From Chloroflexales bacterium ZM16-3 (lineage in GTDB: Bacteria > Chloroflexota > Chloroflexia > Chloroflexales > Chloroflexaceae), in the NCBI GenBank assembly GCA_004138175.2, contig RYFE02000035.1:1-57164 (forward strand): a DNA stretch of 57,164 nt, read 5' to 3'. The notes beneath the pieces are model-generated. The model was not told the DNA's origin. It searched no databases and saw only the letters and a program-made list of their open reading frames with translations. Positions 589-57,164 of this stretch are shown piece after piece; the stretch's first letter is position 1; the number at the start of each line of letters is the position of its first letter. Both the position numbers and the translations under genes were made by a program.

Positions 589-1518
589 ATGCGCATACCT
601 GATCTTCTCCCCCGCCTGCTCGCAGGCGACCGACGCGCACTAGCGCGGGCGATCTCGCTGGCGGAGCAGGGCGGCCCGCCCGCCCGCGAGCTGCTCGCCG
701 CCGTCTACCCCCACGCCGGGCGCGCTCACATTGTCGGCATCACGGGGCCGCCCGGCGCTGGCAAGAGCACCCTGGTGAACGCCCTGGCCCTGGAGCTGCG
801 CAGCCTCGGCCGCACTGTTGGGATTGTCGCGGTGGACCCCACCTCGCCCTTCAGCGGCGGGGCTGTGCTGGGCGACCGCATCCGCATGCAGGCCCTCTGC
901 GGGGATCCTGGCGTCTTCATCCGCAGCATGGCCAGCCGGGGCAGGCTGGGCGGCCTCTCGCGGGCCACCGCCGACGCCGTCGCCCTGATCGACGCCGCTG
1001 GCTTCGATATCGCCCTGATCGAGACGGTCGGCGCAGGGCAGGGCGAGGTGGACATCGCCCGCGCCGCACAGACCACAATTGTGGTCGAGGTGCCCGGCAT
1101 GGGCGACGATGTCCAGAGCATTAAGGCCGGAGTGCTGGAGATTGCCGACCTGTTCGTGGTGAACAAGGCCGACCGCGACGGCGCCGACAAGACGGTGCGC
1201 CAGCTGCGATCCATGCTGCACCTGGGAGGCCCGCCCGCCGATGGATGGGAGCCTCCGGTGCTGCCCGCCGTCGCCTCCGCAGGCCAGGGCATCGCCGAGA
1301 TCATCGCGGAGGCCGACCGACACGCAACGCACCTGCGCGCCGGGGACGGGGCCGATGCCCACGCCCGCGCCGCCGCCGAGGGCGATCTGCGCGCCGCCGT
1401 GCAGGAGCTGGCCATTGAGCGGCTGCGCGGCCCGGCATGGGACGCCCTCGTGGCGAAGATCGTCGCCCGTCGGGGCGATCCCTACACCGCCGCCGAGGAG
1501 CTTTTAGGAGCGTTATAG
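589..1518 (+). CDS. meaB: MeaB/ArgK-type G3E GTPase, mutase chaperone
   Basis: The 309-residue P-loop GTPase is the family that loads and protects adenosylcobalamin in methylmalonyl-CoA mutase. The Walker A motif GPPGAGKST lies near residue 50. The switch region AVDPTSPFSGGAVLGDR and the FVVNKADRDGADK base-recognition segment (NKAD) follow in the family order. The length matches MeaB (about 310-330). The frame is also open to an ATG at 544, inside the upstream gene, but the ATG at 589 right after the upstream TGA gives a normal N terminus and the usual coupled arrangement. Older annotations call this family the LAO/AO transport ATPase, which is misleading. The B12-subunit neighbour supports the mutase role. 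Confidence 0.95.
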   Translation: MRIPDLLPRLLAGDRRALARAISLAEQGGPPARELLAAVYPHAGRAHIVGITGPPGAGKSTLVNALALELRSLGRTVGIVAVDPTSPFSGGAVLGDRIRMQALCGDPGVFIRSMASRGRLGGLSRATADAVALIDAAGFDIALIETVGAGQGEVDIARAAQTTIVVEVPGMGDDVQSIKAGVLEIADLFVVNKADRDGADKTVRQLRSMLHLGGPPADGWEPPVLPAVASAGQGIAEIIAEADRHATHLRAGDGADAHARAAAEGDLRAAVQELAIERLRGPAWDALVAKIVARRGDPYTAAEELLGAL

Positions 1519-1621
1519 CGTGGGCGTTGCCCGCTCTATAACTCTCCCCTTGCGCAGCGGCCGGTGAGCGCGTTACACTCTCTATGAGATGCCAGTTACG
1601 CGCAGAATCGGATCAGGGAAT

Positions 1622-3091
1622 ATGTCATTTCGCGCCCGCCTCACCCTCGCCTACACCGGGTTCTTCACCCTGGCACTGTTCCTGCTGGGCTGCGGGATCT
1701 ACTTCTCGGTGCGCCAGTCGCTCTATGGCGGGGTCGAGCGCGACCTGTGGGCGGCCACGCAGCAGGTGCGGGCGATCTTCAACGCCGGTGGCCTGGAGCC
1801 TATCCGCACGCCCAGCGGCGAGATATCGCTCTTCCTCAAGGGCGAGTTCATCCAAATCTTCAACAACCCCAACCTTGGTGCCCAGGTCTTTGGCCCCACC
1901 GGCGACCTGCTCGACAGCACGCCCAACCTCGGCGGGCACGGCCTGACCCTGCCCGAGGGCTCGCTCGCCCTTGGTGCCGACGATATCAACAGCGGGCTCA
2001 CCTCGCTGCGCGAGATCAACGACGTGCGCATCCAATCGCTCGTCACGCCGCTGGTGTTGAAGAGCGGCAAGGTCGTCGGCATCCTCCAGATCTCGCGCCC
2101 GCTCAAGGATGTCGACCTGACCCTCGGCATGCTCACGGTGATCCTGCTCGGCGGCGGCGCGATCGCCCTGATGATGACGGCGGGAGGGGCGGCCCTGCTC
2201 TCGCGCCGCGCGCTGCTGCCGATCGACCTGGTAACGCAGACGGCCCAGGGGATCGTCCGCGCCGAGGACCTGGGCCAGCGCGTGCCGGTGCCGCCCCAGC
2301 AGGACGAACTGCACCGCCTGACCGTCACGATCAACGAGTTGCTCGGTCGCCTGGAGGGGCTCTTCAACACCCAGCAGCGCTTCGTGGCCGATGTCAGCCA
2401 CGAGCTGCGCACGCCCCTCGCCGCCATGCAGGGCAACCTGGAGATCCTCGCGCGCGGGGCGTGTGCGAACCCCGAGATCCTCGAAGAGACGATCGGCGAC
2501 ATGCGACGCGAGACGGCCCGGCTCATCCGCATGGTCAACGACCTGCTGGTGATCGCCCAGAGCGACACCCGCCGCCAGATTCGCAGCGAGCCCGTGGAGC
2601 TCGACACCCTCATGCTTGAGGTCTACCGCGAACTGCGCGCCCTGGCCGGGGCAGTCACCCTGCGCATTGGGGCCGAAGATCAGGTGCTGGTCGCTGGCGA
2701 CCGCGACCGGCTCAAGCAGGCGCTGCTAAACCTGGGGGTGAACGCCATCCAGCACACGGCTGCCGGCGGCTATGTGACATTGGGCCTGGAGCAGCGCAAT
2801 GGCTTCGCCTGCCTGACGGTGGCCGACACCGGCGAGGGCATCTCCGAGGAGGACCTGCCCCACATCTTCGACCGCTTCTTCCGTGCCGACCGCTCCCGCT
2901 CACGGCATAACGGCGGGGCCGGCCTGGGTCTCTCGATTGTTCGCTGGGTCGCCGAGGCCCACAGGGGCACCGTGACCGTTGCAAGTATCCCTGGGCGGGG
3001 CAGCACCTTCGCGATCTGGCTGCCGCTCCCGGATGAGGTTAAGGAGATGCCGCTGGACAATGCTCCAGCGGAATTGCTTGAACCTGCCTAA
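1622..3091 (+). CDS. Membrane sensor histidine kinase
   Basis: The 489-residue protein has an N-terminal membrane helix, an extracytoplasmic region of about 130 residues, a second helix around residues 170-195 and a HAMP linker. A HisKA phosphoacceptor box follows (DVSHELRTPLAA, near residue 260), then an HATPase_c domain with N box NAIQHT, G1 box DTGEGI and GAGLGLSI. It is an EnvZ/BaeS-type kinase that autophosphorylates and passes phosphate to a response regulator. No regulator gene is next to it, so the partner is unknown. An ATG at 1589 is also in frame. The start at 1622 is preferred because the hydrophobic segment then sits at the usual distance from the N terminus and an AGGGA-like site precedes it. 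Confidence 0.9.
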   Translation: MSFRARLTLAYTGFFTLALFLLGCGIYFSVRQSLYGGVERDLWAATQQVRAIFNAGGLEPIRTPSGEISLFLKGEFIQIFNNPNLGAQVFGPTGDLLDSTPNLGGHGLTLPEGSLALGADDINSGLTSLREINDVRIQSLVTPLVLKSGKVVGILQISRPLKDVDLTLGMLTVILLGGGAIALMMTAGGAALLSRRALLPIDLVTQTAQGIVRAEDLGQRVPVPPQQDELHRLTVTINELLGRLEGLFNTQQRFVADVSHELRTPLAAMQGNLEILARGACANPEILEETIGDMRRETARLIRMVNDLLVIAQSDTRRQIRSEPVELDTLMLEVYRELRALAGAVTLRIGAEDQVLVAGDRDRLKQALLNLGVNAIQHTAAGGYVTLGLEQRNGFACLTVADTGEGISEEDLPHIFDRFFRADRSRSRHNGGAGLGLSIVRWVAEAHRGTVTVASIPGRGSTFAIWLPLPDEVKEMPLDNAPAELLEPA

Positions 3092-3786: not shown

Positions 3787-5577
3787 CTACTGCCTGTCGC
3801 CTGAAGACTCCGCCCACACAGCCAGCTGCTCGCGGAAGATCTTCGCGTTGTGGCGGATGTCCACCGGGAAGGCGGGGTGGATCATGAAGCGGTCGATCCC
3901 CGCCGTCATCGGGTGGGCCGCCCCCAGCGCGCGCAGCTCAGCGAAGAGCCGCTCGCGCGCGGCTGTGTTCTTCGGGGCCATGTCTTTGCGCAGCTCGACG
4001 ATCACCACGGGAGTCGGGAGTCGGGAGTCGGGAGTCGGGAGTCGGGAGTCGGGAGTCGCGAGTCGGGAGTCGGGAGTCGGGAGTCGGGAGTCGGGGGGCC
4101 GACTCCCGACTCCTGACCCCCGACTCCTGACTCCTACAAGAGCCGACCGAAACACCGCCGGGTGCTGGTTAAACACCAGCTCCACCGGCTCGGTGTACAG
4201 CGGGCCAGCGGCCGTCTCCACGCGGTGCGACTTACGGCCGTAGAACCAGAGACGGCCCTGATCATCGAGGTAGCCCAGGTCGCCCATGCGGTGCCAGAGC
4301 GTCTCGCCATCGCGGATCTTGGCCAGTGCTGTGGACTGCGGGCGGTTCACGTATGCCTTCGTCACCGACGGCCCCTTCACGCAGATCTCGCCGACATGGC
4401 CGGGTGGCAGGGCCAGCGAGTCGTCCCATGTGGGAATGGGCTCGTCGGAGATGCGTATGATCTTCAGGGTGGCCTCGGGGACGGTGCGGCCGACGCATGT
4501 TCCGGCGGTCGGGTCATTCCGCTCGGCGAGGGCAGCCAGCACCTCGCGGCCGCTGGCCGAGGCGATTGGCAGCGCTTCGGTGGCCCCATAGGGCGTGTGG
4601 GTGTCGGCCGATGGCGAGAGGATGCGCCGAAAGCGCTCGTGCAGGTGCGGCGGCACTGGCGCGCCAGCCATCAACACGCGCCGGAGCGTGGGCACGGTTA
4701 TGCCCTGCGCCACGCAGTAGGCCGTCACCTTCTCCCAGATCGCAGGCGAGCCGAAGGTCGAGGTGACCTGCTGGTCGCGCATGAACTCGATGACGGCGGC
4801 GGGGTCGCATGAGGCTGGACGAACCGGGTCAATCGGCGGGATGGCCGAGGTGGCGCCGAGGGCCACGTTGAAGAGGGCGAAGAGCGGGAAGGCCGGCATC
4901 TCCACCTCGCCGGGCTCGATGGCGTAGAGCTGGCGCAGCAGGCGGATCTGGGCCTCGAACATGCCGTACTCGTAGAGCACGCCCTTGGGCACGCCGGTGC
5001 TGCCGGTGGTGAAGAGGATGGCGGCCAGCTCATCGGCGGCAACCCGCTCGATCAGGAAGGGCGCGCGGATGGGCGCGCTCAGCGCGGCGAGGTTCACATC
5101 GCCGAGCGGGATGTAGCGCGAGCCGACCATGACGCTGCGGCGGACGCTGCGGAAGGCGTGCGGGAAGGTCAGGCGGGCCAGGTGGCCGCGCGGAACGCCG
5201 ACCATCGCCTCGGGCTGGCACTCCTCGATGCACTGGGCCAGGTTGCGCCGACCCATGGCCGGGTCGATCATGATCGGCACGGCGCCGACCTTGAAGAGGG
5301 CGAAGGTCAGGCTGATCAGCGGCAGGCCGGCGGGAACCAGGAGCAGCACGCGCACGCCCCGGCGGATGCCGACACCGGCGAGGCCCCAGGCGTAGCGGTC
5401 GCTCACCTGATTGAGCTCGGCAAAGCTGAGGCTCCGATAGATCACCTTACCGGCGCGGTTGCGCCCGCCGCCGACCACGACGGCCACCTGGTCGGGCCGC
5501 TCGGCGGCCATCTGTGGCAGGTAGCGGGCGATGTTGGAGCTAGCGACGGTCGGCGGTGCCGATTCAGTGGTGATCAT
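3787..5577 (-). CDS. oleC: OleC-type AMP-dependent synthetase (beta-lactone synthetase)
   Basis: A 596-residue ANL-superfamily enzyme with the P-loop TTGSTGVPKG, the YGATEA motif, the GDLGYLDDQGRLWFYGRK hinge region and a C-terminal lysine in NAKIFR. GRKSHRV in place of the usual GRxKD is typical of OleC, which uses ATP to close beta-hydroxy acids to beta-lactones in long-chain olefin biosynthesis. The neighbouring oleB supports this. The start at 5577 is chosen because GGAG lies 8 nt upstream; ATGs at 5583 and 5631 are in frame. A GGGAGTC array (4009-4136) encodes roughly residues 481-523 in frame, as DSRLPTP-type repeats in a C-terminal-domain loop between ALVGV and VVIVELRKD. That insert is not part of the family. 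No oleA or oleD is visible here. Confidence 0.87.
   Translation of the reverse strand: MITTESAPPTVASSNIARYLPQMAAERPDQVAVVVGGGRNRAGKVIYRSLSFAELNQVSDRYAWGLAGVGIRRGVRVLLLVPAGLPLISLTFALFKVGAVPIMIDPAMGRRNLAQCIEECQPEAMVGVPRGHLARLTFPHAFRSVRRSVMVGSRYIPLGDVNLAALSAPIRAPFLIERVAADELAAILFTTGSTGVPKGVLYEYGMFEAQIRLLRQLYAIEPGEVEMPAFPLFALFNVALGATSAIPPIDPVRPASCDPAAVIEFMRDQQVTSTFGSPAIWEKVTAYCVAQGITVPTLRRVLMAGAPVPPHLHERFRRILSPSADTHTPYGATEALPIASASGREVLAALAERNDPTAGTCVGRTVPEATLKIIRISDEPIPTWDDSLALPPGHVGEICVKGPSVTKAYVNRPQSTALAKIRDGETLWHRMGDLGYLDDQGRLWFYGRKSHRVETAAGPLYTEPVELVFNQHPAVFRSALVGVRSRGSGVGSRPPDSRLPTPDSRLATPDSRLPTPDSRLPTPVVIVELRKDMAPKNTAARERLFAELRALGAAHPMTAGIDRFMIHPAFPVDIRHNAKIFREQLAVWAESSGDRQ
4009..4136. repeat. 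GGGAGTC array inserted in frame in oleC
   Basis: Twelve direct heptamer units, one of them GCGAGTC, are followed by GGGGGGCC and about five inverted units (GACTCCC, GACTCCT, GACCCCC). The block lies inside oleC and adds about 42 codons without breaking the frame. Family-conserved protein sequence resumes on both sides. The two halves can form a hairpin. Confidence 0.95.
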
Positions 5578-30863: not shown

Positions 30864-31532
30864 ATGCAGATCCTCACGATCAGCGACGAGATCGTACCGG
30901 CGATCTACAGCCTCAACATTAAGCAGCGCTTTATGGGCGTGGATCTGGTGCTGAGCTGTGGCGATCTGCCGATCTACTACGTCGACTTTGTGATCACGAT
31001 GCTGTCCGCGCCCTGCTTCTACGTCTGGGGCAACCACGATAGCCCGGAGATCCAGGCTGACGGGACAACCCTATACGAGATCCGCGGCGGCACCTGCCTT
31101 GAGGACCGCTGCGTGGAGCACGGGGGGCTGACGATCGCCGGCCTCGGCGGCTCGCTGCGCTACAAGCCGGATGGCGAGCACCAGTACACTGATGTCGAGA
31201 TGATGCGGCGGGTCTGGGGGCTCGCGCCGAGGCTGTTCTTCAACCGGCTACGCTATGGGCGCTACCTCGACATGCTGATCACCCACGCGCCGCCCCTGGG
31301 TATCCACAACGGCCCCGACTACCCGCACCGTGGCTTCCGGGCCTTTCTCTGGCTGATGGATCGCTTCAGCCCGCGCTACCTCATCCACGGCCACATCCAC
31401 CTCTCCTACGGCTATGATGTCACCGTTATGTCCACCTACCGCGACACGACCGTGATCAACACGGCGGGCCACCGGATGATGACGGTCGAGCCGGTGGGCG
31501 GGAGTCGGGAGTCGGGAGTCGGGAGTCAGTAG
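30864..31532 (+). CDS. Calcineurin-like metallophosphoesterase
   Basis: The 222-residue protein has DE near the start (ISDEIV), SCGDLP (metal-binding GD, about residue 33), WGNHDSP (GNHD, about residue 57), THAPP (about 140) and GHIHLSYG (GHxH, about 178). It is a cytoplasmic hydrolase of phosphoester bonds of unknown substrate. The last ten residues or so (GSRESGVGSQ) and the stop are encoded by the GGGAGTC array, so the native C terminus after VEPVG is probably replaced. Confidence 0.87.
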   Translation: MQILTISDEIVPAIYSLNIKQRFMGVDLVLSCGDLPIYYVDFVITMLSAPCFYVWGNHDSPEIQADGTTLYEIRGGTCLEDRCVEHGGLTIAGLGGSLRYKPDGEHQYTDVEMMRRVWGLAPRLFFNRLRYGRYLDMLITHAPPLGIHNGPDYPHRGFRAFLWLMDRFSPRYLIHGHIHLSYGYDVTVMSTYRDTTVINTAGHRMMTVEPVGGSRESGVGSQ

Positions 31533-31575
31533 CACTCCCGACTCCCGACTCCCGACTCCTGCCCCCCAACCCCCA
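31500..31575. repeat. GGGAGTC inverted array at the phosphoesterase 3' end
   Basis: Four direct GGGAGTC units (31500-31527), AGTAGCA, then four inverted GACTCCC/GACTCCT units and an AACCCCC heptamer. The two halves form a near-perfect hairpin that starts inside the coding region. It ends about 6 nt before the convergent SDR gene. Confidence 0.93.
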
Positions 31576-47227: not shown

Positions 47228-48442
47228 TTAGGCACCACTCTCAATCCGTCCGAGTAGCCGGTCGAGCTCGGCGAGCGTGTGAGAGAGCCCGGCGGGGGTG
47301 CGGCTGAGGGCACCGTCGCCCATCATGATCGAGCGGAGCGAATCAATATCATCATCCGCCGCCTCCATGTCGATCAGATCCTGACAAAGCCGTCGGTCGT
47401 CGATTGCAATACCGTGGCGACCGAGCATCGCTTTGTAGCGCGCGAAGTGCTGCGTGAGCTGCGTGGCCACCGTCTCGAAGGCGTGGCGAGCGATGGTCAG
47501 TCGCGTCTGGTAGCGCATCGTGCTGCCGTGGAACATCACGTGATCATCGCGGCTGGGCTCGATCAGAATGATATCGACATTAGGGTGGCGGCGGCGGATC
47601 TGCTTGATGTGGTAGTGTAGGCCAGCGTGGATGAAGGTGCGGAAGACCTGGCTGCCGATCAGGGGGAGTCCCTCGTCGCTGATGGCGTGGCCAGGCGGAT
47701 GGTGCCGGTTGTCGAAGGGCACCATCGGGTTGATGCAGACGATCAGCTCGGCGCCTCCCTCGATCGCCACATCAAGGCTGACGGTGCCACGGATCCCGCC
47801 GTCGATATAGTCGCGCTCGCCGATCCGTACCGGCCGATAGAAGAGCGGGATCGCCGCCGAGGCAGAGACCGCCTGCGAGATCGGGACATGCTCAAGGGGC
47901 GGATGGCCGAAGATCGCCCGCTCGCCGGTGTCGAGGTTGGTGGCGATGATAGACAGCTCGTGATCGAGTTTGGAAAAGTGGTTGGTGCGACCGGGAAGCT
48001 CTAGAGCGGCGCGCAGGTAGTGATCAAGAGCGCTGGCATCGTAGAGGCCACTTGGCAAGCTGGGGGCGAGGTGCTCGGCGAGGTCGAAGAGCGAGGTGCC
48101 CTGCCCGGTGAGCAGATTGCCCACGATTGTGCCGAGGGCGGCGGGCAGATGGCGGACTCGGGCGATGGCGGCGGGCAGGTTGAGCGAGAAGAGGTGCTGC
48201 GGCTCAAGCTGGTCGATCCCGAGGGTCGAGCTGTGGAGGACAGAGAGCAGCGTGCGCGGCGAGATATTGTTGGCCATGCAGGCGCAGACCAGGCCGCCAG
48301 CGCTCGTACCGACATAGCTGTCGAACTCGTTGACCGAGTGCTGATCGAGGATCTGGTCGATCGCGCAGAGGGCACCGATCTCGTAGGCGGCACCAGCGAC
48401 CCCGCCGCCCGCCAGCACAAGGGCAGATTTGCTACGCTGCAT
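47228..48442 (-). CDS. Patatin-like phospholipase 2, in PHA cluster
   Basis: The 404-residue protein has LAGGGVAGAAYEIG near the start, GTSAGG (nucleophile Ser) and DGGIRG (dyad Asp). The oxyanion loop lacks the usual Arg (GGGVAG against GGGxRG), so it is a divergent patatin. It lies downstream of phaR and phasin on the same strand, so a role in PHA granule turnover or lipid coating is possible, as for patatin-type depolymerases; this is an inference. The start at 48442 follows a hairpin (48460-48503); an in-frame ATG at 48490 lies within it. Confidence 0.85.
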   Translation of the reverse strand: MQRSKSALVLAGGGVAGAAYEIGALCAIDQILDQHSVNEFDSYVGTSAGGLVCACMANNISPRTLLSVLHSSTLGIDQLEPQHLFSLNLPAAIARVRHLPAALGTIVGNLLTGQGTSLFDLAEHLAPSLPSGLYDASALDHYLRAALELPGRTNHFSKLDHELSIIATNLDTGERAIFGHPPLEHVPISQAVSASAAIPLFYRPVRIGERDYIDGGIRGTVSLDVAIEGGAELIVCINPMVPFDNRHHPPGHAISDEGLPLIGSQVFRTFIHAGLHYHIKQIRRRHPNVDIILIEPSRDDHVMFHGSTMRYQTRLTIARHAFETVATQLTQHFARYKAMLGRHGIAIDDRRLCQDLIDMEAADDDIDSLRSIMMGDGALSRTPAGLSHTLAELDRLLGRIESGA

Positions 48443-48459
48443 AGCTGCACCATTGGTAG

Positions 48460-48503
48460 GGAAGGGTGACGCGTGAACAAAAACCTTCACGCGTCACCCT
48501 TCC
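48460..48503. repeat. 18-bp inverted repeat between phaR and patatin genes
   Basis: GGAAGGGTGACGCGTGAA and its exact complement enclose CAAAAACC. It separates phaR from the patatin gene and might attenuate the downstream gene. No T tract is seen. Confidence 0.8.
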
Positions 48504-48507
48504 ATTG

Positions 48508-49035
48508 TTATTTCCTGAGGAGCTGTTCGACAATTGAGGACAGCGCATCGACCTGAGCGTGAAGCTGGACAACGTCGTTGCGGCTGGGCATATCGATCTC
48601 TTGGTCGGCGATATGGGATGGCGCGCTGTCTGCGAACTCCTGGCGGAGCAGCAGCAGCCGCCAGCGCACTCCCTCATCGGGCGTGATCTCGCCGCGCTCG
48701 ATCAGAGTGTCGATCCGGCGTCCGATCTCCGTCTCGATCAGCTCCGTGCCACCGAGCGACCCGAAAAGCGTGCGTCGCAGGTTGGTGATCGTATCGCCGC
48801 CCAGCTGGATCATCCCAGTCAGCAGTGTCGTTGACAGCTGCAAACTGCTGCGCCCACGGGCCTGGAGCACAACCTGAGCGAGGATGCTGGAGGTGATATC
48901 ATCGCCGGTCTCATTATCGAGGATCTGGACGGCATCGCCGTTCTGCACGAGCCCGGCAATGCCGTCCAGCGTAATATACTGCTTACGGTTCGTATGGTAG
49001 AGCTTGCGATTGGCGTACTTTTTGATCGTGTGCAT
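48508..49035 (-). CDS. phaR: PHA synthesis regulator PhaR
   Basis: The 175-residue protein carries the PHB_acc_N DNA-binding domain: IKKYANRKLYHTNRKQYITLDGIAGLV, then GDAVQILDNETGDDITSSIL. In family members this domain binds DNA and PHA; PhaR represses phasin genes and leaves them when bound to PHA granules. The C terminus is acidic and coiled-coil-like. Its own upstream region and that of the phasin gene share the motif at 49074 and 49748, as expected for an auto-regulated repressor. The start at 49035 matches the family N terminus. Confidence 0.9.
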   Translation of the reverse strand: MHTIKKYANRKLYHTNRKQYITLDGIAGLVQNGDAVQILDNETGDDITSSILAQVVLQARGRSSLQLSTTLLTGMIQLGGDTITNLRRTLFGSLGGTELIETEIGRRIDTLIERGEITPDEGVRWRLLLLRQEFADSAPSHIADQEIDMPSRNDVVQLHAQVDALSSIVEQLLRK

Positions 49036-49073
49036 ACGCCCTCGGCATTGTGTGGAAAGAGTTTGGCAGGGCC

Positions 49074-49092
49074 AGTATAACACACTGTGTCA
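49074..49092 (-). promoter_or_regulatory. Shared operator/promoter motif upstream of phaR
   Basis: AGTATAACACACTGTGTCA (plus strand). On the minus strand it reads TGACAC...TTATACT, with a TATACT -10-like hexamer. It is 17/19 identical to the site at 49748-49766, and both differences are paired, so the ACRC-T-GYGT palindrome is kept. It lies 39 nt before the phaR start. Confidence 0.6.
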
Positions 49093-49101
49093 GAAGACAG
49101 A

Positions 49102-49133
49102 CGCCCCCGCCCCGATTCATCGGGGCGGGGGCG
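49102..49133 (-). terminator. Hairpin after the phasin gene
   Basis: Perfect 15-bp arms (CGCCCCCGCCCCGAT and complement) around TC. It lies 24 nt downstream of the phasin stop and before phaR on the minus strand; no T tract is present. It probably separates phasin and phaR transcripts. Confidence 0.65.
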
Positions 49134-49156
49134 CTATGGCAAAGGGCAAGCCGCCG

Positions 49157-49633
49157 TTACTCCTCGACCTTAACCTCGCTCTTCGGCGCAGCCTTACCCT
49201 TGGAGGGCGTGTCCTGGGCGCGGCGCAGCTCCTCGACGCGGCCGGCGAGGTGGGCGATCTTCGTGCTCAGCTCGTCGATGTCGCGCTTCGAGGGAATGTT
49301 CAGCCGGTTCAGGAACTGCTCCAGGTTCGTCTCGATCTGGTTGCCAATGGTGGTGACGCCGCTCTGCAGCTGGTTCGTCTGAGGCTGTGCATTCTTGCGA
49401 ATGCCTTCCACCGCCTCGTCGATCAGGTGCTGAGCATCCTTCTGGGCCATCTCGCCACGCTCCACCAGCCGGTTGATGAACTCCTCAGTCTCATCACGGC
49501 TCAGGGCCACGGCACCGACGCCGGCGAGGATGAGCTTGCGCATAATATCGAACATCTGCGCGCTGCCGTTCATCGTCGGCACCGCATCCTCAACCTGGCG
49601 GACATTGACCTCGATCTCTTCAACATTGGTCAT
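49157..49633 (-). CDS. Phasin (PHA granule-associated protein)
   Basis: The 158-residue protein resembles the PhaF/PhaI-type phasins: RKLILAGVGAVALSRDETEEFINRLVERGEMAQKD (a helical amphipathic region), a long alpha-helical body with heptad hydrophobics, and a Lys-rich KGKAAPKSEVKVEE tail. It should coat PHA granules and limit their size. The start at 49633 (ATG, with AAGGAGC 7 nt upstream) is preferred over the longer open frame. Operator-like palindromes lie upstream. Confidence 0.85.
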   Translation of the reverse strand: MTNVEEIEVNVRQVEDAVPTMNGSAQMFDIMRKLILAGVGAVALSRDETEEFINRLVERGEMAQKDAQHLIDEAVEGIRKNAQPQTNQLQSGVTTIGNQIETNLEQFLNRLNIPSKRDIDELSTKIAHLAGRVEELRRAQDTPSKGKAAPKSEVKVEE

Positions 49634-49724
49634 AATCGTGCTCCTTATGGTGCTGTCGCTGTACGATATCGTCGCGGCGCCCCGCAGGCATTGGCATGAT
49701 ACCATAGTCTTATCGGCGTAGGCG

Positions 49725-49766
49725 ATAACGCATTGCGTTATATTTCGAGTATAACACGCTGCGTCA
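49725..49766 (-). promoter_or_regulatory. Two operator-like palindromes upstream of the phasin gene
   Basis: ATAACGCATTGCGTTAT (49725-49741) is a perfect 17-bp palindrome with a central T. AGTATAACACGCTGCGTCA (49748-49766) follows and matches the phaR upstream site. The second contains a TATACT-like -10 on the minus strand. PhaR is the obvious candidate to bind them. Confidence 0.6.
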
Positions 49767-49811
49767 TGCGTGTCAAGACGCGCACAACTGGCCCATCTGA
49801 AACCTTGTCTT

Positions 49812-51146
49812 TCAGCGAAACTCGTGGGCGCCCACATCCTCGCGGTAGGTGCGTCCGGGGAAGCTGATCCGCTCGGCGTTGAGCAGGGCGCGGCCGCGGG
49901 CGCCGTTAAGCGTGGCCCCGAGGCCAACCACCGTGAGCACGTGGCCGCCGGTGAGGGTGATGTCGGGGGCCACGTTGTGCGCGCCCATAATCAGGCTGCT
50001 GAGGATGCCCGGCCCGCCGCGCGCGGCAGGTGTGTAGCGTAGCCCAGCGGGGTTGTGGGTCTGATCATGAAACACAAACACGCCCTCGTCCAGATCGCTC
50101 AGGCCGCGCACGGCCCCGCCAATGGCGAAGTGGTTGGGGTAGCCCTGAGCCACCAGCGTCATACCGACGCTCGCCTCGTCGCGCCAGCGCAGGGGCGGGA
50201 GCTGGTGGAGCCGGCGGCTGATCGCCGCCTCCATCAGCGGCAGCAGGTCGTCCTCTAGGCGCGGCAGCACCACCTGGGCCTCCATATCGCGCAGGCTACA
50301 GCGCAGGTCGGCGATGATCGGCCCCTGCTCGGTGATCACGCAGTCGATGCCGAGAATGCCCCAGTAGGGCAGGCCCTCCTTCGCGACGGCGGCGACGATC
50401 GGGCTGATCAGGTGGCTGTGCAGGTAGTCGCTGAGGCGGTGGGTGTAGCTGGAGTTCCCGGTGATCGCACCCATGCCCGGCGCACGCGGGCTATCGGGCG
50501 AGGCGTCGAGCCGGTCGTAGATCCGCGCCGGAAGGAGCGGTAGCGCCGTGCTTCCATCTACGATCGCCGAAAAGCTCACGCTGATGCCGGGCAGGTACTC
50601 CTCGATCACCACACCGTTGCTGCTGCCCTCGATCGGACGATCAATGAACAGGGTGCGCAGCCCCTCCAGAGCGGCGTAGCGATCATTGTAGATACCGCCA
50701 CCGCCAGCCGGATGGTCGGCCTTGAGCACCACGGGCAGGCTCTGGGATGCCAGAAACTTCTCGGCGGTGGGCAGGCTAGTGAAGGCCCGCCCACGCGCGG
50801 TGGGCAGCCCATAGCGCTGCAGGAACTCTTTGGCATAGCAGCGGCTCCACTCCAGGCGGGTGCTACGCTGCGATGCCCCAAACACCCCGATGTGCATCGA
50901 CACCACCTCGTCCACCATCCCGGCCCACAGGGCGCTGCTCTCGGCGGGAACGATCAGGTCGATCTGCTCAGCGAAGGCCCAGCGCGCAACCTCGGAGGGG
51001 CTGTCCAGATCAAGGTCCACCTGCGGGGCGAGCAGCACCGCACCGCCGTTTCCCGGCGCGCAGAGCACATCGGCGCTAGGGCTGGAGAACAGCTTCCAGA
51101 CCATCGCGTGGGTGCGGCCATCTGATCCAAGGATGAGGATCTTCAT
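49812..51146 (-). CDS. purD: PurD-family phosphoribosylamine-glycine ligase, diverged
   Basis: The 444-residue protein has an ATP-grasp PurD layout: N-terminal GSDGRTHA (usually GSGGREHA), GNGG, GLPTARG, VIEEYLPGISVSFSAIVDG, APGMGAITG and EAQVVLPRLEDDLL. Several core motifs are changed: the ATP-loop reads HPAGGGGIYND in place of DGLAAGKGV, and the metal-binding NxRFGDPE is replaced by LRCSLRDME. It may be an active but divergent enzyme of purine step 2, or a paralogue with another substrate. It is the last gene of the fchA-folD-purD set. The start at 51146 is chosen by the family N terminus; upstream in-frame residues come from a TTGAATG array. Confidence 0.75.
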   Translation of the reverse strand: MKILILGSDGRTHAMVWKLFSSPSADVLCAPGNGGAVLLAPQVDLDLDSPSEVARWAFAEQIDLIVPAESSALWAGMVDEVVSMHIGVFGASQRSTRLEWSRCYAKEFLQRYGLPTARGRAFTSLPTAEKFLASQSLPVVLKADHPAGGGGIYNDRYAALEGLRTLFIDRPIEGSSNGVVIEEYLPGISVSFSAIVDGSTALPLLPARIYDRLDASPDSPRAPGMGAITGNSSYTHRLSDYLHSHLISPIVAAVAKEGLPYWGILGIDCVITEQGPIIADLRCSLRDMEAQVVLPRLEDDLLPLMEAAISRRLHQLPPLRWRDEASVGMTLVAQGYPNHFAIGGAVRGLSDLDEGVFVFHDQTHNPAGLRYTPAARGGPGILSSLIMGAHNVAPDITLTGGHVLTVVGLGATLNGARGRALLNAERISFPGRTYREDVGAHEFR

Positions 51147-51227
51147 CTGAAATGTTGAATGTTGAATGTTGAATGTTGAATACTGAACAAGACCAAACTT
51201 CCATTCAACATTCAGCATTCAACATTA
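51147..51227. repeat. TTGAATG inverted array between folD and purD
   Basis: On the plus strand: AATG, four TTGAATG units and TTGAATACTGAAC (about 51150-51190), then ATTCAACATTCAGCATTCAAC (about 51203-51224), which pairs with it. The array overlaps the folD stop codon and ends just before the purD start. Confidence 0.9.
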
Positions 51228-52070
51228 TTGATGTGCGGCGGCTATCAAGTTGCGGATGAGCATGATGTTCGTCATGGGGCCGGTGCCGCCGGGAACGGGC
51301 GAGATCGACCCGGCCAACTCGGCAACGGTGGTGAAGTCCACGTCGCCCACCAGGCTGCCGTCCGCCGCCACGTTGGTGCCAAAGTCTAGCACCACGGCGC
51401 CAGGGCGGATCATGTCGGCCGTGACCAGGCCGGGCCGACCGGCGGCCACGCAGACGATCTCGCACTCGCGCAGGACGGCCCCGAGGTCGGCGGTGCGCGA
51501 GTGGCAGACGGTAACGGTCGCGTCGGCCTGGATAAGCAACTGAGCCATTGGGCGGCCCACAATGGCCGAGCGACCTATCACAGCGGCGCGCCTGCCACGC
51601 AGCGGGATCTCGTAGTGGCGCAGCAGCTCCATGCCTCCGGCGGGCGTGTTTGGCACAAGGGCCGGCCGGCCCTGGGCCAGCAGACCAGCGCTGATCGGGT
51701 GGACGCCGTCCACATCTTTGCGGTGGTCAATCCGCATAATCGCGGAGTCGGCGTGCAGATGGGCGGGCAGGGGCAGCTGGAGCAGAACTCCATCCGTGGC
51801 CGAGTCTGCGTTCAGCTCGTCGATCGTCACCTCCAGCTGCACCTGGGCGGCGTCGGCGGGCAGGGTGACGAGGCGGAAGCGGGCACCCACGGCGGCGCAG
51901 AGCTTCTCGATGCTGCGCACATAGCGGGTCGAGGCAGCATCGCCAAGCACCTGCACGACGGCGAGCCCCGGAGCGCGGCCAAGCCGCTCGCTCAGGACGG
52001 CGATATCGGACTGGGCAGTGGCACGCAGCTCTTGGGCGAGGGCGCGGCCGTCGAGGATAGTTGCGGTCAT
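51225..52070 (-). CDS. folD: FolD-type methylene-THF dehydrogenase lacking the cyclohydrolase lysine
   Basis: The 281-residue protein matches bacterial FolD without gaps over the active site. Numbering coincides with E. coli FolD: Y50, Q98 and D121 (in KDVDGVHP) are conserved, but K54 is Ile: the segment reads RYVRSIEK where YVxxKxK is expected. Family knowledge: this lysine is needed for cyclohydrolase activity, while the dehydrogenase activity can persist without it. The NADP-binding GRSAIVGRP is intact. So the protein is expected to oxidise 5,10-methylene-THF to 5,10-methenyl-THF and leave hydrolysis to another enzyme, plausibly the FchA encoded just upstream. Confidence 0.93.
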
Positions 52071-52168
52071 AGTTTAATGTTGAATGTTGAATGTTGAATG
52101 CTGAATGCTGATTGCTGAATGCTGAATGTTATGAATGTAGCTCAATTCAACATTCAGCATTCAACACT
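52071..52168. repeat. TTGAATG inverted array between fchA and folD
   Basis: Units on the plus strand: TTAATG, TTGAATG (twice), TTGAATGC, TGAATGC, TGATTGC, TGAATGC, TGAATG (about 52074-52130), then ATTCAACATTCAGCATTCAAC (about 52144-52164). It overlaps the fchA stop. It fills the whole junction between two genes of one pathway. Confidence 0.9.
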
Positions 52169-52805
52169 ACTGATTGATCCGGCTGCGCACGATAGCGAGG
52201 ATTCCATCGGTCTCGTCGCCGAGCCCGATGGCCAGATCCGCGATCTGGGCGCGGGTCTCGCGCACGAAGATCTGATCCTCAAGGCCCGAGAGGTTGATCT
52301 CGATATTGAGGATGGCGCTCTGCACCGTAGCGCGGGCCAGCAGGGCGGCGACGCCAATGTCGCTCACGACGAGGCGCGAGCAGCGGCTGGACAGCGAGGT
52401 GCAGAGCGGGATCAGCGCTGCGGCGGCCAGTGCGGTGCGCAGAGGCACCTCGGCGGCGATGCGGGTGACCTGCTGAATGGCGGCGCGGCGGCTGGCCGCG
52501 TCGGCCTCGGCGGTGCGCGGCAGCTTGTAGGCCGCCGAGAGCCGCCCGAAGACCTCGACATCCTCCTGGGCGAGGGCCTGGAGCTCGCGGCGCAGCCCCT
52601 CGGCGCGATCCTGGATCCCGCGCACCTCGTCCTCGATGTCGGCGAACTGCTTCTTGCCAATAGTCAGGGCACAGACCATACTGATCAGGCCGGAGGCCAT
52701 GGCCCCGCTGATCCCGGCGACGCTGCCGCCACCCGGCGTCGGCGAGCTTGACGCCAGGAGGCCAAGGAATGTGTCGAGCGTCTGCTCGTTCAGGGTGTCT
52801 GTCAT
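52167..52805 (-). CDS. fchA: Methenyl-THF cyclohydrolase, cyclodeaminase family
   Basis: The 212-residue protein is of the FTCD_C/FchA family (TPGGGSVAGISGAMA, near residue 25, then an all-helical body). It should hydrolyse 5,10-methenyl-THF to 10-formyl-THF. A formiminotransferase cyclodeaminase fragment is the alternative; as a stand-alone protein next to folD the cyclohydrolase role is more likely. AAGGAG lies 8 nt upstream of the ATG. A TATAAT -10 on this strand is at 52859-52864. It is the first gene of the fchA-folD-purD set. Confidence 0.9.
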   Translation of the reverse strand: MTDTLNEQTLDTFLGLLASSSPTPGGGSVAGISGAMASGLISMVCALTIGKKQFADIEDEVRGIQDRAEGLRRELQALAQEDVEVFGRLSAAYKLPRTAEADAASRRAAIQQVTRIAAEVPLRTALAAAALIPLCTSLSSRCSRLVVSDIGVAALLARATVQSAILNIEINLSGLEDQIFVRETRAQIADLAIGLGDETDGILAIVRSRINQ

Positions 52806-54589: not shown

Positions 54590-57164
54590 ATGACACGCAG
54601 CGTGGCGGTGATGCGCGAGGGGGTCGTGATCGACGGGCGGCCGATCTTCCTGCTCTCGGGCTGCGTCCACTACTTCCGCTGGCCGCGCGCCGAGTGGCGG
54701 CCGCTGCTGGAGCAGGCGCGCTGGGCCGGGCTGAACACGATCGACACGGTGATCCCCTGGAACTTCCACGCGCCGCGACCCGGCGAGCATAACTTTAGCG
54801 GCGACGCCGACCTGGGGGCCTTCCTCGATCTGTGCGCCGAGCTGGGGCTCTACGCGATTGTGCGGCCCGGCCCCTACATCTGCGCCGAGTGGGATAACGG
54901 CGGCCTGCCGGCCTGGCTCACCGCCGGGGGCGACCTGCGCCTGCGCACCGATGACCCCGGCTATATGGCGGCTGTTGCGCGCTGGTTTGACGCGCTGATG
55001 CCGGTGCTGGCGCCGCGCCAGATCACGCGCGGCGGCCCGATCATCCTCTGCCAGATCGAGAATGAGCACTGGGCCTCGGGTGTCTACGCGAGCGACGATC
55101 ACCAGTCCAGCCTGGCCCAGGCCGCCATTGTGCGCGGGATCGATGTGCCGCAGTACACCTGCATGGGCGCGATGAGCGGCTGGCCTGAGTTTCGCAACGG
55201 CTGGAGCGGCATCGCCGAGAAGCTGGTGCAGACGCGGGCGATCTGGCCGGAGAACCCGATGATCGTCAGCGAGCTGTGGAGCGGCTGGTTTGATAACTGG
55301 GGCGCCAGCCTCCAGACCCGCAAGAGTCCGGCTAAGCTCGACATCACCTTACACCAGCTCACCGCTGTAGGGGCCAGCGGCTTCTCGCACTGGATGTGGG
55401 CGGGCGGCACGAACTTCGGCTACTGGGGCGGGCGCACCGTGGGCGGCGACACCATTCACATGACGACCAGCTACGGCTACGACTCGCCCATAACCGAGTA
55501 CGGCGAGCTGACCCCCAAGGCCCTGGTAGCCCGCCGCCACCACCTCTTCCTCCAGTGCTTCGGCGCGGCCCTCGCACCCGTCCTGGCCGACGCCGCGCCG
55601 GGCGGGATGACGGTGATCGCCCCGGCGGCGGTGCGCGGGCGCAGCGAGGGCGGCGCGGCTCCCTACCGCACCGTGCGGGCCGGGCCGAGCGCGCCAGCGG
55701 CGTGGCGCGACTTCTGCTGCACCTACCTGCACAACCCCGGCCTTGAGGGCGCGACCTACCAGGTCTTCCTGCCCAACGGCGGGCCGCACCTGAGCGTCGA
55801 TGTCGAGCCGACCAGCATACGCCCGATCTTCGCCAGCCTGCCCCTGGGCGACACCGGCGCGCAGATCGCCTACCATAGCGGGCGCATCCTGGGCTTCTGG
55901 CCAGCTTCAGAAAATGACGAATCATCTGGCGAGCGTCAAGATACCTTGATCATCTACGGGCAGATGGGCGAGCAGGGCGTGCTGGGCCTGCGCAGCACTG
56001 ACGAGGATCTGGCTATGTACATTGATGCGAGCGACCAGGCCGCGCGCGCACGTATCGATGGCGATACGCTCCATATTCACTACTGGCTGAGCGATTTTGG
56101 CAGTGAGGTCTATGTCCACTTCGGCGAGCGCGTGCTAACCATACAGCTGATGGCTCAGGAGCAGGCGGAGCTTTGGGAGTCGGGAGTCGGGAGTCGGGAG
56201 TCGGGAGTCGGGAGTCGGGAGTCGGGAGTCGGGAGTCGGGAGTCGGGAGTCGGGAGTCGGGAGTCGGGAGTCAGCCTCCCAACCCCCAACCCCCAACCCC
56301 CAGCCCCCACACTCACCCTGCCCATGGAGCGCCTGTCCGCCCTGGAGGTGAGCGACCTCGACGGCTGGCAGGAGATCGCCGCGCCCACGGCGATGGAGCG
56401 GCTGGGCTGTGACTATGGCTACGGCTGGTACCGGGCCGAGCTGGATCTGGACGCGCCCATGAAGACGACGATCATCGCGCCGGATCTCTCCGACCGGGCG
56501 CGGGTGCTGCTGAATGGCGTGGATATTGGCTGGCTCGGCGTGGACATAGACGGGCCGCGCTACACGCTGCCGCTGAGCCTGGGCGCTGGTCGCCACGAGC
56601 TGCGCATCCTGGCGGATAACCTGGGCCGCTTCAACTACGGGGTCAAGCTGGGCGAGCGCAAGGGGCTGCTCGACACGCTCTACCTCGGCGGCGCGCAGGA
56701 GGATATCTCTGGCGGCTGGGTGGCGCTCTGGCAGGAGGTGCAGTTCGCAGGCGAGGCGGTGGCGAACGTCAAGCCCTGGGCCGTTCGCCCCGATGCGGCG
56801 AACGTCCACCTGGGACGCTTCGCCTTCGCCGGGCCGTCGGTCTGGCTGCTGCGCACGGTGCATGCCGAGCCGGGGCGGCGCTACCTCATCCACATCACCG
56901 GCGACCGCAACTCGGGCGGGCTCTTTGTGAACGGCGCGGCGGTGGAGCGATTTAGCCGACACCGCAGCGGCGGCGTGCTGAGGGCCGACATCACCGACCT
57001 GCTGCGCCCCGGCACCAACGTGCTGGCCCTGAACATCCTGGAGTACGCCGGGGCGCCCTGGCGCGCCACGCTGGCCAGCTACGACCCGGCCCGGCCGCTG
57101 GAGGCGCGCTGGAGCTTTCGGGGTGGGGTTTCGGTGGGGGGTGGGGGTCAGGAGTCGGGAGTCG
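54590..57164 (+). CDS. GH35 beta-galactosidase, partial (runs off the window)
   Basis: The visible 858 codons begin MTRSVAVMREGVVIDGRPIF and follow GH35: SGCVHYFRWP, the N-terminal barrel with CQIENEH (acid/base Glu, about residue 157), and SELWSGWFDNWG (nucleophile Glu, about residue 227), then C-terminal beta-sandwich domains. It should cleave terminal beta-galactosides. AGGAG lies 5 nt before the ATG at 54590. A GGGAGTC array of 14 perfect units (56175-56272) plus AACCCCC units is read in frame as about 43 extra residues (GVGSRES repeats and PNPQPP) between MAQEQAELW and TLTLPMERLS, and a second array begins at 57151. The end lies outside the window. Confidence 0.9.
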   Translation, partial: MTRSVAVMREGVVIDGRPIFLLSGCVHYFRWPRAEWRPLLEQARWAGLNTIDTVIPWNFHAPRPGEHNFSGDADLGAFLDLCAELGLYAIVRPGPYICAEWDNGGLPAWLTAGGDLRLRTDDPGYMAAVARWFDALMPVLAPRQITRGGPIILCQIENEHWASGVYASDDHQSSLAQAAIVRGIDVPQYTCMGAMSGWPEFRNGWSGIAEKLVQTRAIWPENPMIVSELWSGWFDNWGASLQTRKSPAKLDITLHQLTAVGASGFSHWMWAGGTNFGYWGGRTVGGDTIHMTTSYGYDSPITEYGELTPKALVARRHHLFLQCFGAALAPVLADAAPGGMTVIAPAAVRGRSEGGAAPYRTVRAGPSAPAAWRDFCCTYLHNPGLEGATYQVFLPNGGPHLSVDVEPTSIRPIFASLPLGDTGAQIAYHSGRILGFWPASENDESSGERQDTLIIYGQMGEQGVLGLRSTDEDLAMYIDASDQAARARIDGDTLHIHYWLSDFGSEVYVHFGERVLTIQLMAQEQAELWESGVGSRESGVGSRESGVGSRESGVGSRESGVSLPTPNPQPPAPTLTLPMERLSALEVSDLDGWQEIAAPTAMERLGCDYGYGWYRAELDLDAPMKTTIIAPDLSDRARVLLNGVDIGWLGVDIDGPRYTLPLSLGAGRHELRILADNLGRFNYGVKLGERKGLLDTLYLGGAQEDISGGWVALWQEVQFAGEAVANVKPWAVRPDAANVHLGRFAFAGPSVWLLRTVHAEPGRRYLIHITGDRNSGGLFVNGAAVERFSRHRSGGVLRADITDLLRPGTNVLALNILEYAGAPWRATLASYDPARPLEARWSFRGGVSVGGGGQESGV
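56175..56305. repeat. 14 perfect GGGAGTC units inside the GH35 gene
   Basis: Positions 56175-56272 hold 14 identical GGGAGTC units, without one substitution, then AGCCTCCC and four AACCCCC heptamers (56281-56305). The block is in frame within the GH35 gene. Perfect identity suggests recent expansion or homogenisation. Confidence 0.95.
57151..57164. repeat. Start of another GGGAGTC array at the window end
   Basis: GGAGTCGGGAGTCG follows a G-rich heptamer-like stretch (GGTGGGGGTCA). It is in the GH35 reading frame and continues beyond the window. Confidence 0.85.

Follow-up and report, generated by a model that had tools for sequence, protein, structure and literature searches.

A FolD lacking catalytic lysine 54 is encoded beside a predicted stand-alone FchA-type cyclohydrolase in a Chloroflexales genome and across much of the sampled Chloroflexota

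Introduction

Textbooks present FolD as bifunctional. The locus described here raises the question of what a FolD does when the lysine of its cyclohydrolase step is gone and a gene for a predicted separate cyclohydrolase lies next to it. The locus belongs to Chloroflexales bacterium ZM16-3, in a stretch of 57,164 nucleotides (contig RYFE02000035.1) that was analyzed as a whole and is called the window throughout. Lys54 (E. coli numbering) has been proposed as the general acid/base of the cyclohydrolase reaction, with Gln98 positioning Lys54 and Asp121 binding the pterin (PMC3338484); papers given by PMC number are cited from excerpts of their text. An original prediction, made from the window alone, held that a FolD without this lysine and a neighboring FchA share the two steps between them. 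We followed this prediction through the ZM16-3 genome, a sample of Chloroflexota and a clostridial sample.

The fchA-folD pair in the window

On the minus strand, fchA is followed by folD and then by a PurD-like gene, with these features:

52167-52805, minus strand: fchA, predicted FTCD_C-family methenyl-THF cyclohydrolase, 212 aa (Pfam FTCD_C)
52071-52166, no strand assigned: fchA-folD intergenic stretch, 96 nt, with TTGAATG heptamers as inverted pairs
51225-52070, minus strand: folD, predicted K54-less methylene-THF dehydrogenase, 281 aa (Pfam THF_DHG_CYH and THF_DHG_CYH_C)
51951-51953, minus strand: codon of FolD residue 40, Gln (position obtained by counting codons from 52070)
51909-51911, minus strand: codon of FolD residue 54, Ile replacing the catalytic Lys (residues 50-54 are YVRSI)
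49812-51146, minus strand: second PurD paralogue, divergent in sequence and lying after folD (Met 25 of the ORF as listed is used as the start)

Both Pfam domains of the FolD score above their gathering scores (THF_DHG_CYH 108 bits, THF_DHG_CYH_C 198 bits). A phmmer match to E. coli FolD (1b0a) covers residues 1-278 in both proteins, and because the two spans are equal, E. coli numbering applies. Residues 50-54 (51909-51923, minus strand) carry Tyr50 and an Ile where a bifunctional FolD has the Lys of YxxxK; Lys56 is present, and Gln98 and Asp121, likewise expected of a bifunctional FolD, are both in place. The residue assignments of the original prediction thus hold. Among NCBIfam models, the best 25 of 30 matching families are all named as bifunctional, and the cut-off is passed for none of them. 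Ile54 is shared by the FchA-adjacent FolD of all eight sampled genomes of the same family (f1), so it is no sequencing error.

The upstream gene was likewise correctly assigned to the FchA/FTCD_C type. Its product matches FTCD_C with 201 bits, above the gathering score, and stands alone, with no formiminotransferase fusion. The closest solved structure is the methenyl-THF cyclohydrolase 7vg4 (E 4.8e-44), with the FTCD structure 1tt9 behind it (E 2.7e-20); against the NCBIfam FchA equivalog NF045657 it scores 206 bits, below the 275-bit cut-off. TTGAATG heptamers recur as inverted pairs in the spacers on either side of folD, at 52072-52169 toward fchA and at 51144-51233 toward the PurD-like gene.

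FolD, FchA and Fhs elsewhere in ZM16-3

The source genome comprises 6.27 Mb in 127 contigs and is listed as 100% complete. The original prediction had named an intact second FolD as evidence against itself; a second FolD does exist, on contig C51, but its motif YVRNLQVSC places Leu at 54 and Val at 56, so it is not intact. Neither FolD match of ZM16-3 therefore has Lys54 (Ile54 and Leu54). A search of the genome for FTCD_C gave the window FchA and no other match, and one for FTCD_N (formiminotransferase) gave none, which makes a histidine-type cyclodeaminase role for FchA unlikely. Fhs and PurH are encoded on two further contigs (C40 and C13, respectively); given the Fhs, FolD and FchA need not be the sole source of 10-formyl-THF. 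Two congeners (99 and 100% complete) each carry two K54-less FolDs and FchA, and searches of both for Fhs gave no match.

The second ZM16-3 folD (982-1863, minus strand, of locus L002; also seen in L170) lies divergent from a helix-turn-helix regulator that looks PocR-type and sensor-like by eye, and a frame resembling a hydrogenase small subunit, also by eye, lies nearby.

Co-occurrence in Chloroflexota

Profile searches for FolD, FTCD_C, Fhs and FTCD_N were run over 151 Chloroflexota genomes, namely 150 drawn at ≥90% completeness and ZM16-3. A FolD match was absent in six of the 151, and FolD sequence was read in the other 145. FTCD proteins were set apart as fused once formiminotransferase and FTCD_C had been confirmed in one frame; genomes with both a fused and a stand-alone FTCD_C (families f2 and f29) were counted as stand-alone. 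A stand-alone FTCD_C was found in 94 of the 98 genomes that have no FolD with both Lys54 and Gln98, and in only 4 of the 47 with at least one such FolD, being absent from 4 and 43, respectively (Fisher p 2e-27 over the 145 genomes, kinship ignored). The predicted co-occurrence of K54 loss with FchA is thereby borne out. When each family is classed by what most of its genomes show, 33 of the 52 that yielded sequence combine a K54-less FolD with a stand-alone FTCD_C.

The exceptions are few. All four intact-FolD genomes with a stand-alone FTCD_C (G013, G094, G070 and G086) also match formiminotransferase, and in G013 and G094 the formiminotransferase gene adjoins the FTCD_C gene, resembling a split histidine-type FTCD. 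The four genomes with neither an intact FolD nor a stand-alone FTCD_C are G119, which has Lys54 with Glu98 in FolD and a fused FTCD, and the three genomes of family f45, whose FolD is very divergent and K54-less and in which neither FTCD_C nor Fhs was matched. A stand-alone FTCD_C gene next to a divergent formiminotransferase gene also occurs in G024, and five K54-less genomes of families f22, f40 and f43 have FTCD_C beside a formiminotransferase gene and not beside folD. Across the 94 genomes with a broken FolD and a stand-alone FTCD_C, formiminotransferase was matched in 40 and not in 54, and an Fhs match is missing in 46. Further FolD matches in five genomes alter no genome's class: K54-less copies in G059 and G131, a second K54 copy in G041, a fragment in G105 and, in G130, a single gene in two pieces.

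Two kinds of additional FolD were seen. In two loci, folD genes stand in tandem, the first with Ile54 and the second with Lys54 (L026, 511-2370, plus strand; L029, 550-2367, plus strand); the genomes concerned (G105 and G049) are small Chloroflexota genomes with no FTCD_C match, and such a pair possibly reflects a labor split between copies or a heterodimer. Second FolD paralogues with neither Lys54 nor Gln98, of an LLLPL type, occur in families f13, f20, f35 and f38; they are not FchA-adjacent in the nine loci noted (L119, L114, L132, L101, L146, L147, L110, L404 and L405) and similar ones.

Gene adjacency and operon layout

In Chloroflexota, a FolD was called adjacent when it lay on the strand of FchA within the roughly 1.5 kb fetched on either side, stretches cut by a contig end being counted as non-adjacent. 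There are 96 FchA-adjacent FolDs, 83 from Chloroflexota and 13 from the clostridial sample described below, and all 96 either lack Lys54 or carry Q98E; Lys54 is missing in every one of the 83 from Chloroflexota. Lys54 and Gln98 occur together in 81 of 129 non-adjacent FolDs and in none of the 96 adjacent ones. For the 81 fchA-folD pairs with a placeable FolD start, starts were chosen by rule and spacings are estimates: the genes of 41 pairs share an estimated 4 nt, and 57 have a gap of at most 20 nt. The gap in the window is 96 nt. Fifteen genomes were selected by eye from coordinates, and all 15 have fhs after folD, on the strand of folD. No reading frame of the examined loci matched both FolD and FchA, as a fusion of the two would.

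Other lineages

An FchA alignment scan of named genomes gave at least 80 loci, 24 fused and 56 stand-alone among those listed. A K54-less FolD lies beside FchA in 9 of the 56 stand-alone loci among the matches listed, and the titles of eight of these nine name Chloroflexi, Chloroflexales, Anaerolineae, Anaerolineales, Dehalococcoidia, Chloroflexus, Herpetosiphon or a Thermogemmatispora-type organism. When 38 of the 56 stand-alone FchA genomes, a set chosen for FchA and without a control, were searched for FolD, it was found in 28. Among the matches listed, 15 of these have K54-less FolDs only, 4 have Lys54 with Glu98, 8 have Lys54 with Gln98, and one (G175) is mixed, with one copy carrying Lys54 and one lacking it. 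The 15 include two Eisenbacteria, a Fimbriimonad, [Clostridium] ultunense, a Calditrichales bacterium and Emergencia timonensis. Two of the eight Lys54 and Gln98 genomes are titled Chloroflexi (loci L185 and L187), with FolD and FchA lying apart in both. The FchA-adjacent FolDs within the 28 all lack Lys54 or carry Glu98 (5/5; L253, L255, L256, L273 and L275).

The clostridial sample was taken from the phylum to which [Clostridium] ultunense belongs and comprised 61 genomes, that of [Clostridium] ultunense being included though chosen for its FchA. FolD was read in 53 of them, from the 30 best-scoring loci, the 20 weakest-match stretches and the FolDs beside FTCD_C. A FolD with Lys54 and Gln98 is present in all 25 genomes without FTCD_C vs 8 of the 28 with it (Fisher p 1.6e-8, kinship ignored). 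The 13 FchA-adjacent FolDs divide into five without Lys54 and eight that keep Lys54 with Q98E. FTCD_C loci were fetched for six of the eight intact-FolD genomes, and two of the six have a formiminotransferase frame alongside. Three further genomes (G203, G242 and G245) carry a K54-less FolD plus an intact copy, with FTCD_C not found, so a K54-less copy is not always a sign of FchA. Extra clostridial FolD copies with Ile, Leu, Ala or Gln at 54 were also seen at six loci (L352, L353, L360, L368, L356 and L357).

Residue patterns in FolD

The 88 FchA-adjacent K54-less FolDs have an aliphatic residue at position 54 (Ile in 51, Leu in 18, Val in 14, Ala in 5). Tyr50 is present in 87 and Asp121 in 83; Gln98 is present in 52 and missing in 36. 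A basic residue at 56 occurs in 84 of the 88 vs 79 of 81 FolDs with Lys54 and Gln98, and Lys56 was rejected as a substitute for Lys54, since a basic residue there is just as common when Lys54 is present. A compensating conserved lysine was sought across the columns of the K54-less FolDs, and none was gained.

The largest basic gain in the K54-less FolDs is at position 40, from none to half of the rows, mostly as Arg. FolDs with Lys54 and Gln98 have Leu40 in 70 of 81 and Gln40 in 2 of 81. Among FchA-adjacent K54-less FolDs, Arg or Gln stands at 40 in 59 of 83 from Chloroflexota, and four of the five from clostridia have Arg. Of the 34 non-adjacent K54-less FolDs from Chloroflexota, only 6 have Arg or Gln there. 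Polar residue 40 thus tracks the FchA-linked lineages and not K54 loss itself. The lysine of human FolD is surrounded by residues including Leu38 and Ile40 (PMC3368264, excerpt), which correspond to positions 36 and 38 in window numbering; residue 40 could therefore face the same pocket. A polar residue there may replace the lysine in holding the pterin, which is a guess.

Phylogenetic independence

In a FolD tree of 150 rows built with column 54 left out, six changes of K54 state are needed and starred branches force two; one side of a branch holds most of the K54 forms. A second tree, which takes in the clostridial sample and has 154 rows, needs seven changes of the Lys54 and Gln98 state. 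Tests on independent pairs had two to three pairs in the first tree and four to seven in the second, too few for significance to be reached; in the second tree, an average of 3.1 of 4 pairs show no difference in FchA adjacency, and in 0.9 it changes in the same direction. Given so few state changes and independent pairs, the correlation is that of one or a few old events faithfully kept, plus a separate clostridial Q98E route. Loss and gain of Lys54 are indistinguishable because the FolD tree is unrooted; in that unrooted tree, the dehydrogenase-only form could be the older one, with Lys54 a later gain that displaced FchA.

Proposed division of labor and alternative explanations

Direct observation covers which residues are present, how the genes are ordered, how they co-occur, and the absence of Lys54 from both ZM16-3 FolDs; the activities of the two proteins, and their direction in the cell, are predicted from sequence. 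The window FolD is very likely a monofunctional methylene-THF dehydrogenase, with FchA as the methenyl-THF cyclohydrolase of the second step. A dehydrogenase-only FolD fits because Lys54 is absent while Tyr50, Asp121 and the NAD(P) domain are kept. Tyr50 and Asp121 for folate, with the NAD(P)-binding domain, would sustain the dehydrogenase step; Ile at the position of the putative acid/base catalyst Lys54 would remove the hydrolysis step from FolD; and FchA would interconvert methenyl-THF and 10-formyl-THF. Sundararajan and MacKenzie in 2002 reportedly found human Q100 and K56 mutants to be without cyclohydrolase activity and to keep the dehydrogenase. The split of FolD's two steps over a K54-less FolD and FchA, as originally predicted, finds support in the co-occurrence and the residues, and it is very likely real across most of the sampled Chloroflexota, in most of whose genomes the fchA-folD pair would be an old arrangement. 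Several findings weigh against it: the few state changes in the FolD trees, the intact FolDs kept by some genomes with FTCD_C, the f45 genomes with a K54-less FolD and no FTCD_C match, and the score of the window FchA below the NCBIfam cut-off. We further favor, with some reserve, the view that Lys54 and Gln98 form a two-residue switch in the FolD family that follows the gene neighborhood, being broken wherever FchA adjoins. By one route, in Chloroflexota and some clostridia, an aliphatic residue would replace Lys54, in most cases together with a change of Leu40 to Arg or Gln; by the other, in other clostridia, Glu would replace Gln98 and Lys54 would be retained.

It is improbable that the K54-less FolD is still bifunctional, with Lys56, Gln98, polar residue 40 or water replacing the lysine and FchA merely speeding the step. 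The claim of the original prediction that loss of the lysine abolishes cyclohydrolase activity in the family is not universal: the K53A mutant of silkworm MTHFD retained that activity, with a kcat/Km of 0.097 vs 0.13, and kept its dehydrogenase activity (PMC6443876, excerpt). A bifunctional reading can also draw on Gln98 in 52 of 88 and a basic residue 56 in 84 of 88 FchA-adjacent K54-less FolDs; however, the latter is equally common in FolDs with Lys54 and Gln98 (79/81), hence no compensation, Gln98 is missing in 36 of the 88, and no column gains a conserved lysine. Redundancy would also leave unexplained why none of the 96 FchA-adjacent FolDs has both Lys54 and Gln98. A role for the neighbor as formimino-THF cyclodeaminase in histidine or purine breakdown, making methenyl-THF that FolD reduces to methylene-THF, is very unlikely. 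The Pfam family is the same and 40 of the 94 broken-FolD genomes with a stand-alone FTCD_C match formiminotransferase, but ZM16-3 and 53 others of the 94 do not, the window protein is far nearer to FchA 7vg4 than to FTCD 1tt9, and no recognized cyclohydrolase would be left, with 46 of the 94 also without an Fhs match.

The dehydrogenase itself might have been lost or changed in K54-less FolDs, leaving another substrate or a regulatory role. The Lys and the Gln are listed as activators of the dehydrogenase step too (PMC13156950, excerpt), so that this activity could also be weakened in a K54-less FolD, and some K54-less FolDs are also without Gln98. Against this stand Tyr50 in 87 and Asp121 in 83 of the 88 FchA-adjacent K54-less FolDs, the complete NAD(P) domain of the window FolD, the lack of any K54 FolD match in ZM16-3 and the dehydrogenase activity retained by silkworm K53A (PMC6443876, excerpt), which together make loss of the dehydrogenase a most unlikely reading.

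The PurD-like neighbor and other features of the window

The original prediction named the gene after folD as purD and tied the pair to purine synthesis. The gene is PurD-like, but it is a divergent paralogue. It scores 80 bits against GARS_N vs 137 for the other PurD of ZM16-3, on contig C35; it has DLRCSLRDMEAQ where that protein has the EYNARFGDPEAQ motif by which PurD membership was judged; and it reaches 277 bits against TIGR00877, whose cut-off is 288. Since the neighbor is a divergent paralogue and a higher-scoring PurD is encoded elsewhere, the tie of folD to purine synthesis is weak. A close relative of the window copy lies downstream of folD at eight other loci, L033, L035, L037, L038, L040 and L041, which represent six other genomes of family f1, together with L171 and L172. 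Seven of the eight sampled f1 genomes thus carry the altered paralogue after folD, and in G077 the contig ends before that position could be read.

PHA-type genes occupy 47228-49927 of the window:

47228-48490: patatin-like protein
48508-49083: PhaR-like regulator
49157-49927: phasin-like protein

Arrays of a GGGAGTC heptamer occur at 1-35, 4008-4095, 31499-31559 and 56175-56272 of the window; one is at the window start, and one lies within the open frame of a protein that is beta-galactosidase-like by eye.

Significance and comparison with known systems

If the two-residue rule is true, residues 54 and 98 would separate bifunctional from dehydrogenase-only FolDs in any genome, and together with one neighboring gene they would show whether an organism runs these folate steps with one protein or two. 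Most Chloroflexota FolDs would then be misnamed as bifunctional, and metabolic models of much of a phylum would be corrected. The rule would also provide natural dehydrogenase-only FolDs for work on mechanism and formate assimilation, and what cells gain from separating (or channeling) both steps would become testable. In the openly licensed literature searched (titles and the starts of abstracts), nothing was found on K54-less FolD in Chloroflexota, on its extent across the phylum or on a K54/Q98 rule.

The division of labor proposed here is the same as that of MtdA and Fch of Methylorubrum extorquens; the original prediction had compared it with MtdA and Fch of methylotrophs. The dehydrogenase there is MtdA, of a family other than FolD, whereas in the window it is a FolD. 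The structure nearest to the window FchA, 7vg4 (titled methenyltetrahydrofolate cyclohydrolase), is presumably an M. extorquens protein. Yeast MTD1 is reported to be without the catalytic lysine, and we know of no FchA partner for it. This eukaryotic protein is FolD-like, NAD-dependent and dehydrogenase only (Wagner 2005 and Barlowe 1990, as cited in an excerpt of PMC11064299). The FolDs of E. coli and human (the DC domain of MTHFD1) are of the same family as the window FolD; they are bifunctional with Lys54 (human K56) in the excerpts of PMC6443876 and PMC3368264, whereas the window FolD has Ile. A bacterial methylene-THF dehydrogenase called monofunctional, that of Peptostreptococcus productus (PMC6443876, excerpt), is likened to it by description only.

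The closest likeness in gene order is to acetogens and clostridia, in which a separate fchA lies beside folD, with fhs (PMC3315566 and PMC10472528, excerpts). The fhs1-fchA-folD cluster of Acetobacterium woodii likewise has its own cyclohydrolase gene, fchA, beside folD and with fhs, and FolD, FchA and Fhs of C. perfringens have been studied in E. coli (Aluri 2016, as cited in an excerpt of PMC7219735). The FolD/FchA split itself is thus already known from these organisms. The residues differ between the two groups, the clostridial comparison covering the 13 FolDs of our sample: 8 of the 13 clostridial FchA-adjacent FolDs keep Lys54 and carry Q98E, whereas all 83 from Chloroflexota are without Lys54.
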